Position numbers and translations under genes: made by a program
The notes under the pieces: generated by a model
Told to the model about the DNA's origin: nothing
What the model saw: only the letters and a program-made list of their open reading frames with translations
Database searches by the model: none
Source of the DNA: Butyrivibrio sp.
Lineage (GTDB): Bacteria; Bacillota; Clostridia; Lachnospirales; Lachnospiraceae
Length of the DNA: 36,233 bases
Assembly (NCBI GenBank): GCA_017615275.1
Contig: JAGAAO010000037.1
Location: 1-36,233 of the forward strand
Reading direction: 5' to 3'
Shown: in pieces, positions 1,916 through 18,599 of the stretch
Numbering within the stretch: position 1 is the first letter of the stretch
Layout of the letters: the number at the start of each line of letters is the position of its first letter

Positions 1916-2581
1916 TTATTTACGTTTTCTAATATGTTTACTTTCTTCGGCAGCCTTGATAACATCAGGAACTTCACCAACCTGTGAAGCCTCTCCTGTG
2001 GACTCGCAGCGGATAGTTACTCTGTTGGCTCCACCTATAGTACATGTGAAAAGAGTAAGATCCCAATCTCCCGACTCCATCTTCTCGGTATCATAAGCTC
2101 CGAGAGTCTCCATATTGGAAACCTCGAAATAAAAGCTTCTTCCATTCATATCGGTAACTATAACTTTATCACCTGTATGTAATTCTTTAAGCTTTCCGAA
2201 GTGTTCAATGTAATTATGTCCGGCAACGATCAGATCGTTGTCGTATACAGATCCCATGTATCTGCAGACTGAAACCTTAGCATTGTCGTTGCTCCATTCA
2301 CTCTGAATAGGAAGTAACAGACCAAGACTGGGAATCTCTACCGTTCCGATAAAGCTCCTTCCGTCCACATCTACTATCGGCATATCACCACTTAATTCCG
2401 GCTCAAGCGTCCTTCCGGGCATCTGTTCAATAACTCCGCCTAAAAGTTCATCAGAAGCTTCTCCCGCTTCCGCATTCTCGTCAAAATTGTTCTTAATAAT
2501 GAGTACCGCGATAAAAATCAGCGCTGCACCCAAAAGCATGTAGATATAACCTGAAATCTTCTTCAATTTTTGTCCCCTCAC
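1916..2581 (-). CDS. sortase (class D-like), last gene of pilus operon
   Basis: A 221-aa sortase transpeptidase with one N-terminal membrane segment (about 11-29). The catalytic His is in AGHNYIEHFGKL (His122), the Cys in LTLFTCT (Cys180), and the Arg shortly after (Arg187 or Arg191). The TLFTCT context and the lack of a C-terminal membrane helix fit class D or a housekeeping type rather than class C. A plausible role is to attach the finished pilus or the LPQTG basal pilin to the cell wall. It follows the minor pilin after a hairpin (2599-2628) and ends the operon. The exact class is inferred from motif context. Confidence 0.85.
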   Translation of the reverse strand: MRGQKLKKISGYIYMLLGAALIFIAVLIIKNNFDENAEAGEASDELLGGVIEQMPGRTLEPELSGDMPIVDVDGRSFIGTVEIPSLGLLLPIQSEWSNDNAKVSVCRYMGSVYDNDLIVAGHNYIEHFGKLKELHTGDKVIVTDMNGRSFYFEVSNMETLGAYDTEKMESGDWDLTLFTCTIGGANRVTIRCESTGEASQVGEVPDVIKAAEESKHIRKRK

Positions 2582-2640: not shown

Positions 2641-3726
2641 TTAATTATTATGAGTCTTCCTTATTCCCTTAATGATCAGTGCAAGACCGGCAATAATGAG
2701 TATAGGAAGAGGCCACCACAACTGACCTGTCTGTGGAAGTCTTCTTGCGCCCAAAACTGCAGGAAGCTCAGCGAGCTTTCTTACTGCACCGAGTACATCC
2801 GGAACCGGAGTCTCATCAGGTGTTGTATCGCCGCCACCGGAAGGTGTTTCGTCATTGCTCGGCGGAGGTGATGAAGGAGGATTATACGTATTGGTAATTG
2901 TATAAATCTCCGAAGCAACATCTGCATTATAAATTACAGAACTTGAAACAGAAGCTGAATATCTGGAGTTCTCAGGTAATACCTCTTTAAACTCCCACTT
3001 AAATCCGGGCTTCTCCTGCCACTTATATGTCCAGTCATTGGATTTATCCAAAGTAACTGTTGCATAGTCAGCGCCGTCCTTTAAAATCTTTACATTGATG
3101 GATGAAGGACGCTTATCTGAATATCCCTCGTCATTCCATCTCTTATGAAGTTCAAGATCGACCATTCTGTCGAATCTCTCTGTCTTTGCGGTAGCGCTTC
3201 CGCTGTATACCCAGCTGTCATTATCATCAAGCTGAGGGACTGCAACTAAAAACGGAGCAAACACATATGTACTATCTGTCTCAAGATAGTTATCTGCGCA
3301 AACAAGATAAATACCAAGATCAACATTGCTAAACTGAGCCAATCCTCTGGATGACACAGCTGACTGATCCGGTTGATGCTCCTTTACAGCATAGTCCTTA
3401 ACATCTTCCAAAACCTGTTTCCACTCCTGCTGAGCAGTGGCCTCATCTGTGATGCCATTCAGATCCTTAATGGAAGATTTCTCGTCGTACCCGGGATCAA
3501 GAACGAAAGTTCCATTCTCCGTTGCACTAGCGATCTTGTAGATGTGTGAATTAACACCATCAAACAACTTGTCCTCACCGAATTTGTACGTAACAGCCAA
3601 AGATCCTTTCTTTGACGTGTCAATACTCTCTCTGGCTTGCGCTTTTACAGATGCATAACCGAAGGTCATGACTGTAGCCATGAGCGTAACCGCCAATCGG
3701 CTTAAGATATTCTTTCCCTTAATCAT
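2641..3726 (-). CDS. LPQTG-anchored minor (basal) pilin with Cna-B-type domain
   Basis: A 361-aa secreted pilin. The signal peptide (about 1-32) ends near VKAQA. An N-terminal pilin-like domain (about 40-190) is followed by a Cna-B domain (about 190-280, VDLELHKRWNDEG ... ITNTYNPP), a Pro/Ser/Thr-rich spacer (about 280-310), LPQTG (330-334), a hydrophobic segment and a basic tail. Size and position between the class C sortase and the terminal sortase suggest the basal subunit anchoring the pilus to peptidoglycan. Two VLGAxR motifs sit just before the sorting signal. It lies 23 bases after the class C sortase and is certainly cotranscribed with it. Confidence 0.85.
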   Translation of the reverse strand: MIKGKNILSRLAVTLMATVMTFGYASVKAQARESIDTSKKGSLAVTYKFGEDKLFDGVNSHIYKIASATENGTFVLDPGYDEKSSIKDLNGITDEATAQQEWKQVLEDVKDYAVKEHQPDQSAVSSRGLAQFSNVDLGIYLVCADNYLETDSTYVFAPFLVAVPQLDDNDSWVYSGSATAKTERFDRMVDLELHKRWNDEGYSDKRPSSINVKILKDGADYATVTLDKSNDWTYKWQEKPGFKWEFKEVLPENSRYSASVSSSVIYNADVASEIYTITNTYNPPSSPPPSNDETPSGGGDTTPDETPVPDVLGAVRKLAELPAVLGARRLPQTGQLWWPLPILIIAGLALIIKGIRKTHNN

Positions 3727-3749: not shown

Positions 3750-4604
3750 TTACTGTTTCTTTGCTCCCTTTGTCTTCTTAGGCTTTGAAGTCCTAACAAG
3801 AAAAACTATAAACGCTATTATAAGAATCGGTGCCCCGATGAACGGTGCCACTATCATGTTGTTGTACCTTACAGCATCTGCAGGTACTATGAGTTTTGTT
3901 TCCTCGCTATAATCAACACGTTTTGCCCTGACAAGTAACCTATGTGTATTAACTCCGTATGGAGTACAGGTAACAAGCGTGACGTATTCTTTTCCATCGA
4001 CTATTGCCAGATCATTGGTCTCCTCAGGGAGAACAATATTTATCTTATCAATCTGATATGCAAAAGTCTGATCCAAAATATGAAGTAAAAATGTGTCTCC
4101 GACGATCATCTGATCAAGATCGGAAAACAGTTTCGAGGACGGAAGTCCTCTGTGTCCCGAAAGTACCGCATGTGTACTTTTGGTACCGGTGGGAAACGAT
4201 GTTCCCTCCAAATGTCCTATACCAACCTGCAAAACAGATTCTGTAGTTCCGTGATAGATAGGAAGATTGACCCCAATATTTTCAATCTCTATATACCCCA
4301 TAATGCCGGTTCCGGTTACATCCAGAATACTGTTGTATTCTTGCAATTCTTCTTCTGAAAGATCTATATTCAGCGGCTTTTTGGCTAATTCCTCATTGTA
4401 AGCCTTTGCCTCATTCCATAGTCTTGTGTAATCCTCTTCGGAAATGTTGTTAACCATTTCCTCGTAGTTGGAAATTGCTCGACTCTGATTTCGTGAATTG
4501 ATGAAATTACTGACTGACGGATATAAAAAGATCGCTATACCTGCCACAAATATCAATCCAAATATTATGTTGGGTAATGTTTTCTTTAAGTTACGTTTCT
4601 TCAT
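3750..4604 (-). CDS. class C pilin-polymerising sortase
   Basis: A 284-aa class C sortase, which joins pilin subunits by linking the LPxTG threonine to a lysine of the next subunit. It has an N-terminal membrane segment (about 11-30), the class C signature LPIYHGT, the catalytic His151 in LSGHRGLP, Cys213 in TLVTCTPYGVNTHR, Arg222, and a C-terminal membrane helix (about 250-272) followed by a basic tail. I do not see the usual DP(F/W) lid motif that occludes the active site in many class C enzymes. It is encoded directly after the major pilin, behind a strong hairpin (4673-4706), as in known sortase pilus operons. Confidence 0.92.
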   Translation of the reverse strand: MKKRNLKKTLPNIIFGLIFVAGIAIFLYPSVSNFINSRNQSRAISNYEEMVNNISEEDYTRLWNEAKAYNEELAKKPLNIDLSEEELQEYNSILDVTGTGIMGYIEIENIGVNLPIYHGTTESVLQVGIGHLEGTSFPTGTKSTHAVLSGHRGLPSSKLFSDLDQMIVGDTFLLHILDQTFAYQIDKINIVLPEETNDLAIVDGKEYVTLVTCTPYGVNTHRLLVRAKRVDYSEETKLIVPADAVRYNNMIVAPFIGAPILIIAFIVFLVRTSKPKKTKGAKKQ

Positions 4605-4756: not shown

Positions 4757-6220
4757 TTACTCTGCATCAGCTTTTCTACGAACGATGAAATATGCTACAG
4801 CAGCGATTATAAGAATTCCACCAATGATGAAGAAAATTGTTGTACCAATTCCACCTGTTGAAGGAAGTGTAAGACCTGTTCCATCTTCGATCTTAGCTAC
4901 CTGCATTGCATCAGTTGTAGAAGTTGTTGATACTGTAACCTGCTGAGCGTGCTTATACTCTGTTCCGTTTACTGTTACAGAGCTCTCAAGAAGGTTGTAT
5001 CCCTGAGGTGCCTTTGTCTCAACAAGAACATAGTTCTCTGCGTTAAGACCTAATACAGCGATAGGTGTCTCAGCAACTGTAACGATTGTATCAACAGTTC
5101 CTTCAGGATCTACCTTGTACTCAGTATCAGAAATCTTTGTGAACTTAACAGGTGAGTTGTCGAATTCTCTAACAACTGTAAACTCTGCACCGGGAAGAAC
5201 CTTCTCGGTTGTATCACCAACAGCCACCTTCTTGATCTGAAGTGGATATGTCTTTGTAATTGTTGTTACATGAGTTGTCTCTGTGTTGTTACCATAGATG
5301 AGGTAAGCTTCGTTGATGTTCTCATCTGCAGAGATAACTGCATCTTTATTTACAACTGCCTGGTATGCTACTGTTACTGTTGTGTCAGCAGCAGGCTGTC
5401 CGTCAAATGTAATCTGGAAACCTTTGTTTCCGTCTTCGCCAACATAATCGTTGTTAATTGTGTAACCGATCTTTGCATCTGTTGAGAATGAAATGTTGCT
5501 CTCCTGAACAGGTACAAGTGTAAGTCCGGGTGTCAATGTATCTACGATAACGTATCCTTCACCACCAACCTTGAGCTCAGCAGCGATTTCGAAATCTACT
5601 GTATCGCCGATCTGTGCGTCGTTTCCGGTCTGATCGCTGTAAACAGTTGAGATGTTTGTAGCACCTTTAACCTTCTTGTCGATGCTGGGAACGCTGTTCT
5701 TCTCTTTGATAGATACATTAGGTGTAGTTGTATCAACTGCTACCGCACTACCAAGTGAAGAATCTACTACATAGTAACCAAACTCATCTACGGAGATAGT
5801 AGCTACTCCATCTTCGCTAGCTAATGTTGAACCATCATTAGCAATTCCGTTTGCTTTTGCGTAAGCAAGTACTGCCTTACCAAACACTTTTACGTCTTCT
5901 TCTGTTGCAAGACCTGATGTATCAAGGATATCATTGTCTCCAACTGTAAAGAATGAGCTCATTGCTACACTGCTACCGTCATCGGTATATGTGTAAGATG
6001 TGAGTCCCGCAAACTTAGGAGCAAGCTTATAAATACCACCACTCTCTGCGTTTGCTTCATCAGCAGGTATATAATCAAATACTCTATAAGCGTCGTAAGT
6101 CTGACCTGCTATTGCATTTCCAACTGTAATTGTTCCACCAGCCGCATAGGCTGTAATTGCCATTCCAAGCACCATAGCTGATACAAGGAATCCCATTACC
6201 AGTTTCTTGATTCTGTTCAT
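4757..6220 (-). CDS. major fimbrial pilin, LPSTG, SpaA-type
   Basis: A 487-aa shaft pilin. I start it at the ATG at 6220, because AAGGAGAG lies five bases upstream and it begins a clean signal peptide (MNRIKKLVMGFLVSA, cleavage near AYAA). An in-frame ATG 30 bases further upstream lacks this spacing. Domains: N-terminal D1 (about 27-175), a central isopeptide-type domain (about 175-325), and a C-terminal SpaA/Cna-B domain with the E-box-like YVLVETKAPQGY. LPSTG (452-456) is followed by a hydrophobic helix and RRK. It is expected to be polymerised by the class C sortase immediately downstream. Confidence 0.9.
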   Translation of the reverse strand: MNRIKKLVMGFLVSAMVLGMAITAYAAGGTITVGNAIAGQTYDAYRVFDYIPADEANAESGGIYKLAPKFAGLTSYTYTDDGSSVAMSSFFTVGDNDILDTSGLATEEDVKVFGKAVLAYAKANGIANDGSTLASEDGVATISVDEFGYYVVDSSLGSAVAVDTTTPNVSIKEKNSVPSIDKKVKGATNISTVYSDQTGNDAQIGDTVDFEIAAELKVGGEGYVIVDTLTPGLTLVPVQESNISFSTDAKIGYTINNDYVGEDGNKGFQITFDGQPAADTTVTVAYQAVVNKDAVISADENINEAYLIYGNNTETTHVTTITKTYPLQIKKVAVGDTTEKVLPGAEFTVVREFDNSPVKFTKISDTEYKVDPEGTVDTIVTVAETPIAVLGLNAENYVLVETKAPQGYNLLESSVTVNGTEYKHAQQVTVSTTSTTDAMQVAKIEDGTGLTLPSTGGIGTTIFFIIGGILIIAAVAYFIVRRKADAE

Positions 6221-6349
6221 TTTTCTCTCCTTCTTTGAATCTTGTGTCACTTGTTGTCAAACACGATTAGTATATCCGGCGTTACTAGCGCCTGTTTTAA
6301 AGCATTTTTCTGCCCTAAAGCCATTCATATAACACGATCTTATTCAAAG

Positions 6350-9300
6350 TTACTCTTCAGATTCTTCTTTCTTACGTTTGATCCTGTATGCTGTTCCACC
6401 CAAAAGTGCTGATACAGCTGTTCCAAGACCTGCGATAAGAATAGGAAGTTCTCCGATTCCACCTGAGTTTGGAAGCACATTTCCGCTTCTCTCATTAGCA
6501 ACTACCAGCATTGCGTTACTACCTTCTGTAAATACGCTCTGCCAATCTGTTCCGCTCGCGATCTGAGTATCCTTACTATAGCTGAAGTATGTGATCTTAG
6601 GAGCATCACGGTATTCTGTCTCACCTGTCGAATCGCACTCTACGATGTGGTACTTACCAGCATCAGGTACTGCTACTTCTGCCGTCCACTCACCACCGTA
6701 GCTGAGTGTTATAGGTCCTTTGTAGAGTTCCATCGATCCGCCGTTTGACTTATAAAGGTTAACAAATACACTTCCGAAAGCTTCTGTATCCTTATATGCA
6801 ACTTCGCTGCCGTTTACAGTCCATACCTTCTTGATCTTAATATAAGGTGTATTTGTAAGTTCAATCTTAGCGTTTCCTTCTTCGTCGTATGATGTCTTGC
6901 TCTCTGTAAGCTTGTATCCGTTTACGGTTGATACTGCATCTTCTGCTTCAGAAGCCTGCTCAACAACATTACCTGCTGCATCGTAAACTACAAGACTTAT
7001 AGGAGTTAACTTAACGAGTTCGGAACCGTTGTTGTAATACTCTTCTGCAACGTACTCATAAGTATTTCCGTTTGCATCACAAGAGTCTACATTTTCAATG
7101 ACATGCTCTGTTGAACGAACCTGTCCGTCGTGTTCACTGCACTCGGATGCGCTTATTACGAACTGCTCGAAGTCTTCGAACTCGCCGCCTTTAACGCGTC
7201 TCTTTACCTTAACGTTTACATCCCAGATGTTATCTGTTGATGTCTGTGCCCACTTCTTAACAACAACTATCTTCATAGAAGACTTGTTGTAGAATCCGGC
7301 TTCGTTCTCAGGTATTGCATTTGCCTCTGTGCAAAGATCTGCAAGACCTACACAGCTGTCAAAGTTTTCGTGAATAGGTGCTACAGTTGCTTCATCAGCA
7401 ATTCTGTAATATGTCTTCTCAACACCGTCACCGTTTGTATAGTAGTCAACTTTCGCAACAATGAGTGCCTTATCACAGCTTATTGAAGCTGAATCTGAAG
7501 CTTTCTCACCGAATACGAAGTAATATGTATTTCCGGGCTGAAGTTCCCAAGCTGCTGCATCTACAGGATAGTTAATATTGCTTCCGTTATTGGTTACAGT
7601 ATTTACTGCTCCGTATTTGCCCTTGTCTCCGCCTACAACTGTCTTTGTTCCATCCTGAGCAACACTGATCATTCTTACCCAGAAAGTGAACTTGAGGTTG
7701 TTATCCTGGAGAGGACTTCCGTTAAGGAACTTAGTCATATTGAGGTCAAAGCTCTGTGCCTTACCGTTATTGAATGCCGGATCGCTTACAGCCTTCTTGA
7801 AGTTCTTATCACTGATTCCTTCATTGAGAGCCTTTGTTACGCCCGCTGCATCAACAACAGCATATTTAACGTTAACATTGTCGCCCTTCTTGCAATATTC
7901 AACCTTTGCAAGGATTCCTGATGCATCCTTAATATAAGGAGCCTTTGTATCATTCTCGGTAAACATGAAGTAGTAATCATTCTTTGCTTCAATTCCGAGT
8001 TCTGCGGGATCCTCTATCGCATACTTGATAGATTCGCCTATATTCTGGATATCATCTGCAACAGTCTCCCAGCCTTTATCTTTACTGTACTTTCTCAATG
8101 TGAATGAGAATATTTCCTCATCTGTAGGAGTCTGTCCGTTTACAAGCTTTCTTGCGCCAAGTTCTACAGGAATAATAGCTGCATCAGTATTTGTAATTGT
8201 CAAAGATGCCTGCATATCAAGGTGCTTTCTGATTACGATCTTGTGAATCTCACACTGCTTTGTAACCTTGTTTGCAATAATTGTTCCGCTGTAAGAACCT
8301 GTTGTTGTAATATGCGCATCAGGTGCAATAAGTGTTCCTGATAATATATCTGCTGTAATGCTTCCTGAATATGTAGAAACACCACATCCGTTTCTGTTGA
8401 TAAGGTTGATAACTATCTGATTGGCAACTTCGCTCCAATCACCTGTTCCCTTACCATTAACTTTAATTTTATCGAGCTTATAAGTTCTTGCATTTGAAAG
8501 ATCAACATTTATTACAAGAAGCTTATCTCCGATATCGATACCACTATTTACAGCAACATTCTCATCGCCGCCTAAATAATACTTACTAAGGTCATAACGA
8601 AGGCTTCTGCCGTCTGTTGCTATGATATTAGCTACTTCAACATCACCTGTTGATGCTGCATTGGCAATCTTGGATGAAGCATCTCTTGCCTGTGAGAGCA
8701 TTGCACCGATATTGATCGGGAAGTCTCCTGTATATGTATTCTCAACATACTGATTTGTCTTAACCTCTGTTACACTCTTGTATGTTGATCCTGACTTAAA
8801 GTAAACAGTGTTACCGTCAATGTGCTGAAGAATCATCTTAGGATCATGACCGTTAAGGTTCTCAACATAGTTATCTGAGTAACATGCCATACCGTCACTT
8901 ACACCGGTAAATCCGTTTCCACCGTAAGAAACAGTATATGATCCAAACTGTCCGTCATTCTTTATAGCGTTTCCGCCCTGCTTATCAAGCTCAAGAACGT
9001 ATCCTCTTGCAGCATTCTTACAAACTTTACTGAAATCAAAAGTATAAGAACCTGTTCCGTCCGCTCCTGTTGTGATACTGAAATCACTTCCGTTGATCTT
9101 GGACTTTCCTTCAGGATCTGAAAATACTGCAAAGTAGAATGTTCCTGCTTTTCTGGGACCATTTACAACCTTATTTACTGTTACTGTATATTTTCCTAAA
9201 TGCTGATATACATTTGCAGAATTACCAAGTGAATAATTGTCTACATTGTAAATATTACGTACTGCAATATTTGCTTCACTGTGGTTCTTGCATCCGTCAT

Positions 9301-10870
9301 AATCATTTCCGACAACACCAAAGTATGTCGAATCACCAAGCATTCCGATAATATCGCCTGCTGAGTATTTATCTGTACCCTTCCAAGTATGTCCGTTATC
9401 ACATTTTACATATGCATATACACAGAATGATGATGTCTGGAATGAAACAACGTCACTTGAATCTCCAAGCTTAACAGAACCGTTGTCGATCAATTCAAAA
9501 TCAATCTGGCTTGCTGTGATATTGGTTGCATCACTTGTCTTGTCATAGTTCTCTTTTACGCCTTCTGCAAGAGGAAGGTGTACGATTGAAATATCTTCTG
9601 CATTCTCTGCTTCAAGATCAGAAGAAATTCTGTTGTCATTATATTCAATAGAAACAGCTACTGTTCCTTCTGTAGGATCATACTCTACTTCATCGAGGAT
9701 GAATGCGATATCAAAGAGTACTGTGTTCTCCTGAGTGTACTCTACTGCCTCTTCTTCACCTCTCTTTTCAGCGATTGCATCAGCGTTATTATTAAGTGCA
9801 TCCAAATAAGCTGAGTAATTGTAACCACTTGTAGTAGGTTCTACATCAGTAACAGAAAGTTCGATTCCCTCGGGGAACATCTCGGGCTTTGACAAAACAG
9901 CCTTAACGGTTATTTCGCCATTCTTATATACGAACTCTTTCTGAGTATTTGCAGCATTGTATACGAATCTGAGCTCTGCATCTTCTGTGATCTCTAATTT
10001 CTTACCTTCCTTGGTTGTTGCTTCGTAATACGAATACTCTGCAACTTCGCCCTCTTTATCGGTAAGAAGTGAAGCGCTGTCTTCATTTTCTTCGTCTGCC
10101 TTAGAAACTGAAGCTTCCTTTGTCTTCTTAGCGATCTTTACGATCTCTTCATCGTCAATAAGTGCTTTGCTGAAGAAGTAACCATCAAATTCCTCGACCT
10201 CTTCTTTTTTGATCTCTAAGGATTCATTAATGGAAAGTTCTTTTGACTCAGCAATCTCCTTATCATGCGAATCTACATATAATTCTTTTATGACTACATC
10301 TTTTAAGTCTTCTATTGAAGATTCGGTAGAAGATGCTGCCGTTGATGCGTCTGTAGACATTGCTGATGAAGCCATGCTTGACGCGTCTGAAGATGCTTCT
10401 GTTGTTGCTGTTGAAGCGCTATCAGAAACTACTTCTTCTTTTTCCCCATCTTTTTTCTCTGATGTTACATCTGTAGCGGCGCTGTCATTTCCGTCAGAGC
10501 TTGCGGAGAGATTCTCGGCATTCTCATTGTTATTGCCGTCTCCGTTTTCCCCATTCTCTACGGGAGCATTTCCGCCTTCGTCAGTTACATCATCTCCACC
10601 TTCGCCGTCATTCGCTACCTCACTGACTTCTTCTTCCTTGTTGTTCATCTCTTCGATGAGCTCAGCCTCAAAGTCGTCATCCGCAGTATCGAGCACAACA
10701 CCAATGGACTGTGCGCCTTCCTCTGTCATCGCAGCAGCAGGTTTATTAAGCATGTATAATGTAATAGAACCTGTTAACATAGCGATGCACAAAACAAATG
10801 CAATCCATTTTTTGTGTCTCAAATGCTTCTTGATGTAGTTTTCTGCGCGGTTTTCATAAGCTTTGCGCAT
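6350..10870 (-). CDS. giant LPNSG-anchored adhesin, probable pilus tip subunit
   Basis: A 1506-aa surface protein. An N-terminal basic segment and hydrophobic stretch (about 22-45) form a long signal peptide. Next come a low-complexity region rich in Asp/Glu/Ser/Ala/Asn (about 60-190) and a mixed region (190-500). About 555-720 is FctA-like (YTVTVNKVVNGPRKAGTFYF). A segment around 740-870 resembles the choice-of-anchor A domain (SGTLIAPDA, SGTIIAN). Then follow further FctA/Cna-B-type repeats (about 880-1450), including MKIVVVKKW and IKIKKVWTV. LPNSG is at 1466-1470, followed by a membrane helix and RIKRKK. Size and position before the major pilin suggest a tip adhesin. The ligand is unknown. 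Confidence 0.87.
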   Translation of the reverse strand: MRKAYENRAENYIKKHLRHKKWIAFVLCIAMLTGSITLYMLNKPAAAMTEEGAQSIGVVLDTADDDFEAELIEEMNNKEEEVSEVANDGEGGDDVTDEGGNAPVENGENGDGNNNENAENLSASSDGNDSAATDVTSEKKDGEKEEVVSDSASTATTEASSDASSMASSAMSTDASTAASSTESSIEDLKDVVIKELYVDSHDKEIAESKELSINESLEIKKEEVEEFDGYFFSKALIDDEEIVKIAKKTKEASVSKADEENEDSASLLTDKEGEVAEYSYYEATTKEGKKLEITEDAELRFVYNAANTQKEFVYKNGEITVKAVLSKPEMFPEGIELSVTDVEPTTSGYNYSAYLDALNNNADAIAEKRGEEEAVEYTQENTVLFDIAFILDEVEYDPTEGTVAVSIEYNDNRISSDLEAENAEDISIVHLPLAEGVKENYDKTSDATNITASQIDFELIDNGSVKLGDSSDVVSFQTSSFCVYAYVKCDNGHTWKGTDKYSAGDIIGMLGDSTYFGVVGNDYDGCKNHSEANIAVRNIYNVDNYSLGNSANVYQHLGKYTVTVNKVVNGPRKAGTFYFAVFSDPEGKSKINGSDFSITTGADGTGSYTFDFSKVCKNAARGYVLELDKQGGNAIKNDGQFGSYTVSYGGNGFTGVSDGMACYSDNYVENLNGHDPKMILQHIDGNTVYFKSGSTYKSVTEVKTNQYVENTYTGDFPINIGAMLSQARDASSKIANAASTGDVEVANIIATDGRSLRYDLSKYYLGGDENVAVNSGIDIGDKLLVINVDLSNARTYKLDKIKVNGKGTGDWSEVANQIVINLINRNGCGVSTYSGSITADILSGTLIAPDAHITTTGSYSGTIIANKVTKQCEIHKIVIRKHLDMQASLTITNTDAAIIPVELGARKLVNGQTPTDEEIFSFTLRKYSKDKGWETVADDIQNIGESIKYAIEDPAELGIEAKNDYYFMFTENDTKAPYIKDASGILAKVEYCKKGDNVNVKYAVVDAAGVTKALNEGISDKNFKKAVSDPAFNNGKAQSFDLNMTKFLNGSPLQDNNLKFTFWVRMISVAQDGTKTVVGGDKGKYGAVNTVTNNGSNINYPVDAAAWELQPGNTYYFVFGEKASDSASISCDKALIVAKVDYYTNGDGVEKTYYRIADEATVAPIHENFDSCVGLADLCTEANAIPENEAGFYNKSSMKIVVVKKWAQTSTDNIWDVNVKVKRRVKGGEFEDFEQFVISASECSEHDGQVRSTEHVIENVDSCDANGNTYEYVAEEYYNNGSELVKLTPISLVVYDAAGNVVEQASEAEDAVSTVNGYKLTESKTSYDEEGNAKIELTNTPYIKIKKVWTVNGSEVAYKDTEAFGSVFVNLYKSNGGSMELYKGPITLSYGGEWTAEVAVPDAGKYHIVECDSTGETEYRDAPKITYFSYSKDTQIASGTDWQSVFTEGSNAMLVVANERSGNVLPNSGGIGELPILIAGLGTAVSALLGGTAYRIKRKKEESEE

Positions 10871-10923
10871 ATCTCTTTAACCTCTTACCCATAAATTGTC
10901 TGCCAGTTACTTTTTTATATTTT

Positions 10924-11541
10924 TTAAAGTCCTCCAAATTCCGCCAAGGGATAGACTCTAAAAAACACTTTACCAATAAGCTGTTCCTTGGTCACACATC
11001 CGACTACACTACTTCTTGAATCAATAGATGCGCTTCTGTGATCGCCGAGAACGAAATATCTGTTCTCAGGAACCTGATACGGAAAAGTTAGATCGGTCGG
11101 TTCAAAACTCTTTTCTGCATAAGGCTCGTCCAATATTTCCCCGTTTATTGTGACGTTACCATCTGCATCGATGTTGATCCAATCGCCAGGTGAACCAACG
11201 ACTCGCTTTACCAGTACCTTGTTGTTATAGTAGAAAGCAATCAGCTCACCCGCCTCAAAGGTTGAACTGTTCTTAGCCACTACTATGTGTCCGGTCTCAA
11301 GTGTCGGTGTCATACTGTCTCCCGTCACTCTCAATACCGTTATGAAAAAGCTGGAAATAAGAACTGCAAGTGCTGCAACCACAACGACTACTATCAATGT
11401 GTTTCTCAACACTTTCTTATATTCCGATTTGCTATTTTCCCTGTTTAATTCTTGTTTAAGCTGATCCAGAGAAGGTTTGACCTGCTCCTGTTCCTCTTTT
11501 TCTTTTTTGCCTTTTTTTTCTTTTTCCTCTTTATTACCCAT
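10924..11541 (-). CDS. lepB: type I signal peptidase
   Basis: A 205-aa membrane serine peptidase that removes signal peptides. It has a charged Lys/Glu cytosolic N-terminus (1-45), one membrane segment (about 48-69), the catalytic serine in GDSMTPTL (Ser76) and the general-base lysine in KVLVKRVVGSPGD (Lys112). The later box is FVLGDHRSASIDSRS (the GDN/DSR box; here GDHR). Signal peptidases dedicated to pilin processing occur in streptococcal pilus islands, so this copy probably serves the pilins it is encoded with. It lies between the acidic coiled-coil gene and the adhesin gene. Confidence 0.93.
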   Translation of the reverse strand: MGNKEEKEKKGKKEKEEQEQVKPSLDQLKQELNRENSKSEYKKVLRNTLIVVVVVAALAVLISSFFITVLRVTGDSMTPTLETGHIVVAKNSSTFEAGELIAFYYNNKVLVKRVVGSPGDWINIDADGNVTINGEILDEPYAEKSFEPTDLTFPYQVPENRYFVLGDHRSASIDSRSSVVGCVTKEQLIGKVFFRVYPLAEFGGL

Positions 11542-11589
11542 CCGTACTCTCAGTCTTTTCTTTGTTGTAATGCGATTCTTCGGTGCTAA

Positions 11590-12510
11590 TTACATTTCTG
11601 CAGCTCTGAAGTTGTCATAATCATCAAGGTCGTCATACTCATCTTCGTCATCGTACTCTTCCACATCGTCATATTCCTCTGCATCATCGTACTCATCTGC
11701 ATCGTCATATTCTTCTGTGTCGTCATACTCATCGGAGTCATCGTATTCTTCTTCCTCTTCCGAATATTCCTCCTCTTCAGTATCTTCTGCATACTCTTCA
11801 GCTTCAGCTTCTTGTATATAATCATCAGATTCTGCTTCCTGTTCGACTTCTGTCTCGTCGTCCGTGTAAGCTTCATCTGTATATTCCTCTGCTTCCGCAT
11901 ACTCTGCCGCATCCGCTTCTTCGTCTACATCTGTGTGAAGTTCCTCAACCGAATACCCTGTCGCTTCAGCGATTCTAGCATCTATGCTCTGCATTTGAGC
12001 TTTTTCATAAAGTGCTATTCTCTGTTTGCTCTCTTCGATATCTTTCATAAGAGCATCGTATTCGACTTCAGCGTTCTTCTTTACAGTTTCAACATAAATG
12101 TTTGCTGCTCTCTGAGCCGCTTCAAATATGCCACCAAGTTGTATGGACGCTTCGGCAAGTGATTGTGAATTCTCGATCTTCTCGAGTGAATCATCGACCT
12201 GCCGTTGCAGCTCTTCCTTCTCTCTTGAAAGTCTGGCTTTTAAACCGGAAATGTCCTTATCGAACTTTTCCTGCATCTCCGCTTTCTGTTCATTGAATTT
12301 TGCTCTCATCTGAGCTTTTTCTTCATCGAAACTCTTCAGCAGATTACTGCGCTCTTCAGCCATTTCCTTAAGGAGTTGCTGCTTTTCCCGTTCAGTTTCT
12401 TCCTTCATTTCCTTTTCATGTTGCTTAGCTGCCTCGGCTTCTTCGGAAAAGTTAATCATCATTTCCAAAAGTTCTGTTCTGCTGAGTTTTTTTAAGTTGA
12501 CCTCTGCCAT
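11590..12510 (-). CDS. acidic coiled-coil protein, first gene of the pilus operon
   Basis: A 306-aa protein of unknown function, with no signal peptide or membrane helix. Residues about 1-30 contain a short conserved-looking head (LKKLSRTELLEMMINFSEEAE). Residues 20-165 are a long Glu/Lys/Gln-rich predicted coiled coil with heptad character. Residues about 190-300 are extremely acidic, ending in seven hexapeptide repeats of the form EYDDxD/E. It is the first gene after the c-di-GMP riboswitch leader and precedes signal peptidase. It could be a cytoplasmic scaffold or regulator of pilus assembly; this is inference. Ribosome site GGGACGG is modest. Confidence 0.8.
   Translation of the reverse strand: MAEVNLKKLSRTELLEMMINFSEEAEAAKQHEKEMKEETEREKQQLLKEMAEERSNLLKSFDEEKAQMRAKFNEQKAEMQEKFDKDISGLKARLSREKEELQRQVDDSLEKIENSQSLAEASIQLGGIFEAAQRAANIYVETVKKNAEVEYDALMKDIEESKQRIALYEKAQMQSIDARIAEATGYSVEELHTDVDEEADAAEYAEAEEYTDEAYTDDETEVEQEAESDDYIQEAEAEEYAEDTEEEEYSEEEEEYDDSDEYDDTEEYDDADEYDDAEEYDDVEEYDDEDEYDDLDDYDNFRAAEM
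11623..11748 (-). repeat. 18-bp tandem repeat coding for EYDDxD/E units
   Basis: Seven consecutive 18-base units code for EYDD followed by two variable residues (SD, TE, AD, AE, VE, ED, LD). The units differ at synonymous and variable positions, so the array is somewhat diverged. Copy number could vary between strains by slippage. Confidence 0.85.
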
Positions 12511-12568
12511 TTTCCGTCCCTACATTTCTGTTGTTGAGGAATCTTATACAAGCACTTCACCAACGTAA

Positions 12569-12780
12569 TAAAAAAAAGCTATCCTGCATCCGACTCCTTG
12601 TCTTTACATGATACCTTCGTTTACACACAGGCAGTCGCAAAGCTTGAGTCAGTAGTTGATGAAATTACGCTCCCAAGTACGCACCGCGCTAATCTGCGGA
12701 GGTTCATCCATGAACAATAGCCGTACCGTAACTTGCATAAAATTAGACCGTCTGAAGAGTTTCGCAGCCCGGTCCTCATT
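12569..12780 (-). other. structured leader RNA of unknown type, between c-di-GMP aptamer and first pilus gene
   Basis: About 210 bases with nested inverted repeats on the transcribed strand. A two-part helix pairs 12727-12731 with 12665-12669 and 12722-12726 with 12677-12681. Enclosed by it are a hairpin GTTCA/TGAAC (12702-12715) and a hairpin CCGC/GCGG (12684-12699). A separate hairpin GACCG/CGGTC (12746-12774) precedes them. Downstream, AGGAGTCG (12591-12598) can pair either with CGACTgCCT (12629-12637) or, in part, with GACTC (12646-12650), and an 8-U tract follows (12570-12577). It may be an expression platform. I do not recognise the family. Confidence 0.55.
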
Positions 12781-12800
12781 TTGGCGCTATCAACTCAGCG

Positions 12801-12890
12801 CCAGCAACTGGCTGTCTGTCACGTATTTGTGATTAAGACCCTCTAGTTTTGCGTCACCGCTTTCCAGCGGCTTTGCCCCTTTATTTGCTA
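12801..12890 (-). promoter_or_regulatory. cyclic-di-GMP-I (GEMM) riboswitch
   Basis: On the minus strand the conserved blocks of the class I c-di-GMP aptamer appear in order. GGGGCAAAG opens it; then come a GC-rich stem capped by the GAAA tetraloop (GCTGGAAAGC), TGACGCAAAACTAGAGG, GGTCTTAA, a variable hairpin (CAC...GTG), and GACAGCCAGTTGCTGG. This matches the known GGCAAA / GAAA / GACGCAAAGCC / GGTCTAA / GACAGCC-GGTTGCC pattern. A perfect hairpin GGCGCT/AGCGCC (12783-12802) follows directly. The aptamer precedes the pilus operon, so c-di-GMP is expected to control pilus synthesis. Whether it is an ON or OFF switch cannot be read off. Confidence 0.9.
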
Positions 12891-12900
12891 AGTTAAACAC

Positions 12901-12928: not shown

Positions 12929-13018
12929 TACTATATTTCGTCATGTCGTAAAATGAATATAACGCATTGAAAATCAAAACGCAACTACTTTTTCACAGAA
13001 AAAACACAGTTTCCACAC

Positions 13019-16922: not shown

Positions 16923-18599
16923 TTATGCTTCTTTATATTTATTCTCAAAAGTTTCCACTGTCATGGGTCTGTCGAAATAATACCCCTGGAACATTTCGCA
17001 GCCCATGCCTTTAAGGAATTCAAGCTGTTCCGAAGTCTCAACACCTTCGGTAATAACTCCCATTCCAAGTTCGTGCGCCATATCAACCGTATAGTTGAGG
17101 ATAACCTGCGCCCTCTTAGGATTCTCTGTTTTTCTCAAAAATCCCATATCAATCTTGAGAATATTGGCATTTATATCTTTAAGCATGTTAAGAGATGAAT
17201 ATCCGCTGCCGAAATCATCGATCTCAACCAAAAATCCATCCTGCTGAAGCCCAAGTATAAGCTTCGCGCATTTTGAAACATCAGTCGTTACCGCAGTCTC
17301 AGTTATTTCTATGTTGAGATGACGCGGATTGATGCAATATTTCTTTACAAGGTTATTGAACTCTTCTCTGATATCGAGATAATAAAGATCTTTTGGCGAT
17401 ACATTCACCGATATGGAAATACCCTCTCTCGGAGTACCTCTCCACAGAGCAAGCTGCTTTGCCGCAAGTTCCCAGATATATCTGTCGAGCTTATAGATAA
17501 GGTCTGCCTTCTCGAGAACGTCGATAAATACTCCCGGCTGAATTATTCCGTTTTCAGGATGTATCCATCTTGCCAGCGCTTCCGCTCCAAACACCTTACC
17601 GTCGGCATAAACCTGCGGCTGAAGGTAGATTCCGAACTGCCTGTTGATGATGGCAAAGTCAAAGCTGGATAGGATTTCTTTTTCCAAAAGAGCGTTGATA
17701 AGCATATCATCACTGTACCACGCAATCTCACAGACTCCGTCTTTGGTTATGGACTTGCACGCCATATATGCCCTGTCGCACATAAGCGAAATGTCCATAT
17801 CTCTGTCCTTAATTTCATATACGCCAAGCTGAATATGTATGGAATATGAAGCACTGGTAAGGCGCCTTGTTGTCTCCCTTATAGCCTGTTTGAAAACTTT
17901 ATCGTCAAATCGCGACTTAGGCATGCAGAGGGCAAACTGGTCGCCGTTTATTCTTCCGTACACATCATTTTCTTTGACCCCCTGAGAAAGAGAATCCGCG
18001 ATATTTACAAGGATATCGTTTCCCTTATCAATGCCAAAGAGCTGATTTATCAATTTAAAATCTTTAATATTGGAATATACGATCACGTATTCCTGATCGT
18101 CATTTGAATTTTGCAAAAGATTTCTGACTGCACCAAAGAAACCTTCTTTGTTATAGAGCTGAGTCAGACTGTCGTGTGTGAGCCTGTATTGTTCGCCAAA
18201 CTCTCCGCCAAGCGAATCCGACACATTTTGAATAGAATATACATTTCCTATGATCCTGCCGATTTCATCATGAACCCTCTTGTATCTCACACGATAAAGG
18301 CGCTCTTTGCCCGCCGAAACAAAGATCCTGCACCAAGATGTCGCATCCTCTTCTATGCCCAGTCCCGTTCTCCAGGAATCAAACGTCTCATAGAGAAGAT
18401 TCAGATCATCCATGATATAGAACATGCTGAAAGCTCTCCTGTTCGCATAGACGCACCTTCCATCCAGGTTCACAAAAATATATCCGTTCTCGTCCTGCTG
18501 AACACCGAATGAAATGAGCTTTAGAAGCGCTTCGGGATCATATTCTTTATCATAAAAATATGCATTTTTACCAAATATATTTTCAGTATTCATACTCAA
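16923..18599 (-). CDS. PAS-GGDEF-EAL protein, probable c-di-GMP phosphodiesterase
   Basis: A 558-aa cytoplasmic signalling protein. The N-terminal PAS-like sensor covers about 30-128, with FVNLDGRCVYANRRAF. The GGDEF domain (about 138-295) is degenerate: the signature is NGDQF (218-222) and the metal-binding DxDxFK region reads SNIKDFK, so cyclase activity is unlikely. The EAL domain (about 310-555) keeps its catalytic set: EALARW, NVSP, IEITETA, IDDFGSG, LKID, ITEGVET and QGYYFDRP. It should hydrolyse c-di-GMP to pGpG, possibly stimulated by GTP bound at the GGDEF domain. It lies 4 kb from the c-di-GMP riboswitch of the pilus operon. No transmembrane segment is visible. Confidence 0.9.
   Translation of the reverse strand: MSMNTENIFGKNAYFYDKEYDPEALLKLISFGVQQDENGYIFVNLDGRCVYANRRAFSMFYIMDDLNLLYETFDSWRTGLGIEEDATSWCRIFVSAGKERLYRVRYKRVHDEIGRIIGNVYSIQNVSDSLGGEFGEQYRLTHDSLTQLYNKEGFFGAVRNLLQNSNDDQEYVIVYSNIKDFKLINQLFGIDKGNDILVNIADSLSQGVKENDVYGRINGDQFALCMPKSRFDDKVFKQAIRETTRRLTSASYSIHIQLGVYEIKDRDMDISLMCDRAYMACKSITKDGVCEIAWYSDDMLINALLEKEILSSFDFAIINRQFGIYLQPQVYADGKVFGAEALARWIHPENGIIQPGVFIDVLEKADLIYKLDRYIWELAAKQLALWRGTPREGISISVNVSPKDLYYLDIREEFNNLVKKYCINPRHLNIEITETAVTTDVSKCAKLILGLQQDGFLVEIDDFGSGYSSLNMLKDINANILKIDMGFLRKTENPKRAQVILNYTVDMAHELGMGVITEGVETSEQLEFLKGMGCEMFQGYYFDRPMTVETFENKYKEA

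Follow-up and report, generated by a model that had tools for sequence, protein, structure and literature searches.

The leader of a sortase-assembled pilus operon in Butyrivibrio sp. is likely to be a two-stage transcription attenuator that takes c-di-GMP and, probably, the RNA-binding protein CsrA as its inputs. It lies on the minus strand of a 36,233-nt contig (JAGAAO010000037.1, assembly GCA_017615275.1), analysed over its whole length and called the window below. Judged by sequence, this looks like a known riboswitch class that serves a new kind of target from within an apparent two-stage attenuator. Between the aptamer and the start codon are ~290 nt with a P1/anti-P1 switch, a first intrinsic terminator (T1), a GGA element, an antiterminator (AT2) and a second intrinsic terminator (T2). 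Because T1, the second conserved element and T2 lie between aptamer and gene, c-di-GMP is probably not the only input. The preliminary description of this DNA had proposed a riboswitch at the head of a pilus operon; the gene order and the aptamer motif, both conserved across Butyrivibrio contigs, bear this out, but the description was incomplete and missed the ~290-nt leader. The features are collected in Table 1.

Table 1. Predicted elements of the pilus operon and its leader, in transcription order (positions in the window; bit scores with model cut-offs).
Feature	Position	Strand	Evidence or remark
Promoter candidate TTGCGT-N17-TATATT	12956..12984	-	~70 nt 5' of aptamer; loose pattern
P1 extension, 5' strand (UUUAACUUAGC)	12887..12897	-	pairs with 12799-12790, duplex -12.4 kcal/mol
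c-di-GMP-I (GEMM-I) aptamer	12800..12887	-	RF01051 62.9 bits, gathering score 35
P1 extension, 3' strand	12790..12799	-	overlaps anti-P1 hairpin
Anti-P1 hairpin GGCGC..GCGCC	12783..12802	-	mutually exclusive with P1
First intrinsic terminator T1, GACCG..CUG..CAG.CGGUC then UAAUUUU	12739..12774	-	
GGA domain: outer GUUAC/GUAAU and GUACG/CGUAC pairings around H1	12664..12732	-	pairings by eye
H1 hairpin GUUCA-UGGA-UGAAC	12702..12715	-	CsrA-type NGGA loop
Second GGA site, UUGGGAGC	12664..12681	-	ANGGA in many relatives
Antiterminator AT2: 12643-12629 (GCUUUGC..UGCCU) pairs with 12617-12602	12602..12643	-	duplex -11.5 kcal/mol
Second intrinsic terminator T2, ending in U8	12570..12617	-	mismatched in window, stronger in many relatives
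Ribosome-binding region, two further GGA motifs, then ATG	12508..12522	-	by eye
Coiled-coil protein, first gene, 306 aa	11590..12510	-	coiled coil by eye
Signal peptidase I	10924..11541	-	TIGR02227 122.8 bits, cut-off 47
Adhesin candidate, 1506 aa	6350..10870	-	C-terminal LPNSG sorting-like signal by eye
Major pilin, SpaH/EbpB family	4757..6250	-	NF033902 107 bits, cut-off 95; LPSTG by eye
Class C pilin sortase (SrtC)	3750..4604	-	NF033745 273 bits, cut-off 160
Minor pilin, Cna_B domain	2641..3726	-	PF05738 40.2 bits, cut-off 22.3; LPQTG by eye
Second sortase	1916..2581	-	PF04203 56.6 bits, cut-off 26.6

A cmscan search of the whole window placed RF01051 (c-di-GMP-I) at 12887-12800 of the minus strand with 62.9 bits (E = 3.5e-10) versus a gathering score of 35 bits, as a full-length match (model positions 1-87 of 87). 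The proposed c-di-GMP-I aptamer is thus real and passes the threshold of the Rfam covariance model on the expected strand. Its blocks GGCAAA, GACGCAAA, GGTCTTAA and GACAGCC occur in the order given in the preliminary description, but the P2 loop is GGAA in the covariance alignment, a GNRA loop, and not the GAAA named there. The first G of GGCAAA (G20 of Vc2) marks the c-di-GMP type and not the cGAMP type of aptamer; GGCAAA is present in the window and, by the consensus line, in at least 33 of 34 aligned leaders. No minus-strand ORF of 80 aa or more occurs from the aptamer up to the ATG at 12510, in agreement with the earlier statement that no gene separates the two. Of the 48 leaders scanned, 45 have a loose promoter pattern (TTGN3-N16-18-TANNWT) in the 140 nt preceding the aptamer; a stricter promoter scan did not list the candidate of the window. 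The second messenger itself is very likely made in the same genome, since the genome carries six RF01051 matches, five of them besides that of the window, and 27 GGDEF matches (two of which are pieces of one frame). The window also holds a 558-aa ORF with a GGDEF domain upstream of the riboswitch (16923-18599, minus strand).

By its predicted gene content, the operon is of the sortase-assembled pilus type. The seven pilus genes reported downstream of the riboswitch are all present, although for two of them, the coiled-coil gene and signal peptidase I, position is the sole tie to the pilus. The sortase-pilus output is supported by the class C sortase (273 vs. 160 bits) and by the SpaH/EbpB major pilin (107 vs. 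95 bits), which carries a sorting signal (TIGR01167, 26.8 bits vs. a cut-off of 15.9) and matches solved pilins. The 1506-aa adhesin candidate had no match in Pfam, NCBIfam or PDB. The coiled-coil gene was found in 60 of 79 genus genomes. Beyond the second sortase follow MecA and then an arginase-like gene; upstream of the leader is a flagellar hook-type (FlgE-type) gene with its own terminator-like hairpin at 13046-13023.

Gene order was compared in 22 contigs with a gene for a relative of the sortase; the name Butyrivibrio is borne by 19 of them and by the nearest named relatives. Seventeen keep the series FlgE-type gene, coiled coil, signal peptidase, adhesin, major pilin, SrtC, minor pilin, second sortase, MecA and arginase-like gene, the adhesin or FlgE-type gene being a partial match in several of the 17. 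Contig L064 ends early and has the same order up to its end, and L066 is too short for the comparison. The three contigs L068-L070, not named Butyrivibrio, encode signal peptidase, major pilin and SrtC together with a weak coiled-coil match. No Rfam match at cut-off was obtained for L066 or for L068-L070. Since L068-L070 have pilus genes without such a match, the riboswitch looks like an addition to an older operon, as judged from these three contigs only.

Eighteen of the 22 fetched contigs gave a coiled-coil match, and in all 18 the aptamer motif is located 297-364 nt upstream of the start codon. Covariance-model searches found a c-di-GMP-I clan match in 19 of 20 relatives' loci, three of which (L036, L045 and L049) were listed under the variant RF03167 below the cut-off of that model; the remaining locus, L047, had no clan match. 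From the 78 leaders collected, 60 were distinct in the last 300 nt; the aptamer was positioned >280 nt upstream of the start codon in 43, at 170-220 nt in five, and was absent in 12, counts that rest on a loose motif, with the covariance-model check covering the window and 20 loci. Divergent coiled-coil homologues (L088, L101, L102, L104 and L105) have a shorter leader that by eye consists of the aptamer and one terminator. Leaders L082 and L084, also before coiled-coil homologues, are devoid of the c-di-GMP-I motif; by eye they contain a terminator resembling T2 and, upstream, a structured stretch of a different kind, and may hold another sensor.

In a sample of the family, the leader DNA matched 11 of 200 genomes with its own genome counted, many of the searched genomes being drafts; the matches outside the own genome, among those listed, all fell within query positions 1-97 (aptamer and 5' flank). 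The c-di-GMP-I class is widespread in the family, with matches in 110 of 299 genomes. With our own profile (E<=1e-4), no sortase ORF was detected in 60 fetched stretches around other c-di-GMP-I riboswitches, a set made up mostly of best-scoring matches and leader-DNA search hits that is biased to high scores and is not a census (36 of ~12 kb and 24 shorter, three <1 kb; five come from the own genome's other riboswitches). After the profile was rebuilt without the three distant contigs, their sortases were still recovered. One of the 60 stretches, L231 from another genome of the family, encodes a 1161-aa LPXTG wall protein with a thioester domain directly behind a c-di-GMP-I riboswitch (8479-11964, minus strand). 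Two or three c-di-GMP-I aptamers in tandem were seen in other family genomes (G339:C26:727-987, G338:C7:89151-89391 and G082:C10:55501-55750).

Next to the aptamer is the first stage. In the alignment of 34 distinct leaders, a GGYGC..GCRCC hairpin (anti-P1) and then T1 follow 3' of the aptamer; the alternative helix, P1, joins the 5' half of anti-P1 to the 5' flank of the aptamer. The two helices exclude each other, as expected of a switch. P1 strength is -11.5 to -12.4 kcal/mol in the clade of the window; in the other leaders P1 is weak or missing. Helix arms were evaluated by a swap test, in which cognate arms were compared with arms exchanged between leaders in 5000 permutations; T1 and T2 sites were located from alignment slices. 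With 25 representative leaders thinned by shared 7-mers, none of the 5000 permutations matched the cognate arms of anti-P1, and cognate arms were better for T1 (p = 0.0018) and P1 (p = 0.0016), with the proviso that swaps and shuffles leave shared ancestry in. The T1-pattern script found no T1 in six of 43 leaders (L049, L063, L080, L091, L096 and L100), and these were left out of the AT1 and swap tests. The AT1 (anti-T1) helix, formed by the 3' arm of anti-P1 on the 5' arm of T1, was considered as the link from P1 to T1; it looked promising in individual leaders and, in 24 of 37, occupies 2 nt or more of the T1 5' arm. It failed the swap test (p = 0.28 with 37 leaders and 0.12 with the 25 representatives) and was not predicted in the clade of the window itself. 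The partners of the T1 5' arm were scattered in folds of partial transcripts. In the proposed first stage, binding of c-di-GMP to the GEMM-I aptamer would shift the RNA from the anti-P1 hairpin to P1, and the choice of P1 or anti-P1 would decide whether RNA polymerase passes T1.

The sign of this control was sought in equilibrium folding, and thermodynamics was rejected as a guide: in 26 of 34 leaders, T1 had a probability of >=0.8 whether or not the aptamer was enforced. With enforcement, T1 clearly rose in four of the 34 (L029, L030, L038 and L061) and fell slightly in two (L044 and L055); this modelled response, if anything, points to OFF, for which the rise in the four leaders speaks. If the AT1 helix were formed, c-di-GMP would turn the operon ON. 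We lean slightly toward c-di-GMP as an activator of the pilus operon because of the AT1 helix and because in B. thuringiensis the LPXTG adhesin gene cbpA follows a class I riboswitch that is reported to be an ON switch (PMC7423583, in part). That the same architecture switches the operon OFF has a chance only a little short of even: the two C. difficile class I examples, Cdi-1-3 (flgB) and Cdi-1-12 (ZmpI), both act negatively (PMC6200980, in part), in line with the four leaders above, whereas the cbpA switch and the freed anti-P1 arm, which could reach into the T1 5' arm in the 24 leaders mentioned, argue against an OFF switch.

Behind T1 is the GGA domain, followed by AT2 and T2. The second GGA site of the relatives aligns as ANGGA flanked by GUAC and GUAA, and the antiterminator as CUUUGC..GCC : GGUAUxUUGC..AAAG. 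Hairpins with an NGGA tetraloop (at least four pairs) numbered 38 in 43 leaders vs. 5.2 +/- 2.3 in shuffles, and 31 of the 43 leaders had at least one, compared with 4.9 expected from shuffles; a wider search with loops of 4 to 6 found a GGA hairpin in 36 of 43. An H1-like GGA hairpin was missing in seven of the 43 by script and in six by eye. Both strands of the H1 stem change together around a fixed GGA loop (GUUCA/UGAAC, GCUCA/UGAGC and ACUCA/UGAGU). GTTCANGGATGAAC was found in 34 of 79 genus genomes and the same letters reversed in 0 of 79. Locus L049 carries five NGGA hairpins between aptamer and start codon (880-1520). The AT2 duplex of the window ranks at 0.05 among shuffles; across 31 leaders the mean z is -1.92 vs. 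shuffled upstream sequence, with a rank <0.05 in 14 and >0.1 in nine (L035, L036 and L042 of the 34 aligned were left out, their segment being too short). Cognate AT2 arms were better in the swap test (p = 0.0016, 19 leaders), and for T2 none of the 5000 permutations matched the cognate arms (21 leaders). We propose that in the second stage the GGA-hairpin domain, probably bound by a CsrA dimer, would decide between antiterminator and T2, and that translation may be controlled as well, through the GGA motifs at the ribosome-binding site.

Known RNA families did not account for this region. No Rfam family was listed over 12739-12570 of the window, even at E<=5. In L049, Clostridiales-1 (32.9 bits, cut-off 48), TD-2 (23.0 bits, cut-off 48.7) and mir-2831 were all below cut-off and not listed in the other 19 loci, and an ARRPOF match in L029 (26 bits against a cut-off of 127.2) was likewise not accepted. 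A ribozyme such as a group I intron was at first considered downstream of the aptamer and then dropped, since no such Rfam family was listed in the window or the relatives' loci and since the parts of the leader resolve into two terminators.

CsrA is probably the ligand of the second element. We infer this from the GGA hairpins in excess of shuffles, the presence of csrA and fliW in the genome, and the likeness to hairpins in flagellin leaders. FliW antagonises CsrA and senses flagellin. The own genome has two csrA matches, one of them adjoined by fliW; csrA was detected in 55 of 61 genus genomes, and all 35 genomes with completeness >=90% and contamination <=5% have it. GUUCAUGGAUGAAC in the window fits the CsrA SELEX consensus RUACARGGAUGU, with GGA in a hairpin loop (PMC7652899, in part). 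As a comparison, 30 flagellin loci were fetched, of which 28 were readable (L147 had no start and the start of L145 was clearly wrong). In five of the 28 (L136, L139, L157, L163 and L165), an NGGA hairpin lies 34-37 nt upstream of the start codon with AAGGAGG behind it, and these five resemble the CsrA sites of B. subtilis hag and those proposed for C. difficile fliC (PMC7652899 and PMC8523840, both in part). The flagellin comparison supports the CsrA reading but does not prove it, because in the remaining flagellin leaders GGA hairpins are located at other places or are missing. The predicted CsrA-binding RNA of Clostridia, TwoAYGGAY (RF01731; PMC4333381, in part), likewise has hairpins with an AYGGAY-type loop, whereas the hairpins here are in an mRNA leader; no match to it was listed in the window, nor in the 20 relatives' loci at E<=0.5.

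GTTCATGGATGAAC belongs to an interspersed repeat with a 57-nt period in G240 and G258, and several of its single copies elsewhere fall in seemingly coding regions; owing to these repeats and apparent coding-region copies, its raw count is unusable as a count of leader sites. The repeat of ~57 nt (L166-L169, L172 and L106) carries two GGA hairpins, CUACAGGAUGUAG and GUUCAUGGAUGAAC, with 24 and 11 exact copies of the second hairpin in G240 and G258, respectively, and is mostly intergenic by eye. It could be a CsrA-titrating repeat.

Two other explanations of the second element were weighed. Regulation by the c-di-GMP-I aptamer and T1 only, with the stretch up to T2 as a long, stable leader in which the GGA hairpins have a role in mRNA stability or structure, is improbable in our estimate. 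One stage may suffice in the five divergent leaders with aptamer and one terminator by eye, and T2 is mismatched in the window, but the arms of AT2 and of T2 vary together between leaders, and the GGA loops stay fixed while the H1 stem changes. More doubtful again is that the element is an aptamer for a small ligand that drives AT2/T2 and is no CsrA target. An antiterminator/terminator pair behind a compact structured domain is the classic riboswitch layout; against this, the domain is variable by eye outside the two ANGGA sites and closing helices, which fits protein recognition better, and the Rfam search noted above listed no family over the element in the window, the relatives' matches being far below cut-off. 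For the two-stage attenuator with CsrA, we tentatively put forward, at somewhat below an even chance, a specific form: a natural two-input leader with two intrinsic terminators in series, on which first a c-di-GMP riboswitch and then an antiterminator responsive to CsrA would act, such that the pilus operon would be transcribed only when the second messenger and free CsrA are in a particular combination. Because FliW, which senses flagellin, antagonises CsrA, the pilus would be read out against both the second-messenger level and the state of flagellar assembly.

To our knowledge, there is no described case in which CsrA acts on an intrinsic terminator that follows directly after a separate riboswitch. 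In the open-access literature (titles and beginnings of abstracts among the matches listed, with most subscription journals outside), we found neither a riboswitch before a sortase pilus operon nor this leader. One of the closest known systems is Bc2 before cbpA in the Bacillus cereus group, which has the same aptamer class and a sortase-anchored adhesin downstream; there the output is one wall protein and the cited part of the source mentions no second element, whereas here it is a class C sortase pilus operon (PMC7423583). In C. difficile, class II riboswitches precede sortase substrates (Cdi-2-1 and Cdi-2-3) and type IV pili (Cdi-2-4), likewise placing wall-anchored proteins and pili under c-di-GMP, but with another aptamer class and with pili that are not sortase-assembled (PMC6200980, in part). 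A link between CsrA and riboswitches has precedent, although not in this form, in transcript elongation through the pgaABCD leader and in the molybdenum-cofactor aptamer of E. coli (PMC7652899, in part). In pgaABCD, CsrA acts on elongation in an adhesin operon leader, as would be the case here, but termination is Rho-dependent and no riboswitch is mentioned for that leader in the cited part of PMC7652899. At moaA, CsrA and the molybdenum-cofactor riboswitch share one leader, as they would here, but CsrA acts inside the aptamer and on translation, whereas the present GGA domain is separate and lies between two terminators (PMC7652899, in part). The FliW-CsrA-flagellin system of B. subtilis hag has two CsrA sites, one of them at the ribosome site, and a fliW-csrA pair is found here too; its translational repression of flagellin differs from the attenuator proposed here (PMC7652899 and PMC8523840, both in part).

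In Butyrivibrio, this arrangement would put a Gram-positive pilus of the covalently assembled kind under the control of a c-di-GMP riboswitch. Butyrivibrio are rumen fibre degraders, and sheep rumen appears in the title of one contig. The leader is short and occurs in dozens of genomes. Two motility signals may jointly bear on adhesion in these bacteria, and one RNA leader may integrate the two in deciding between swimming and sticking.
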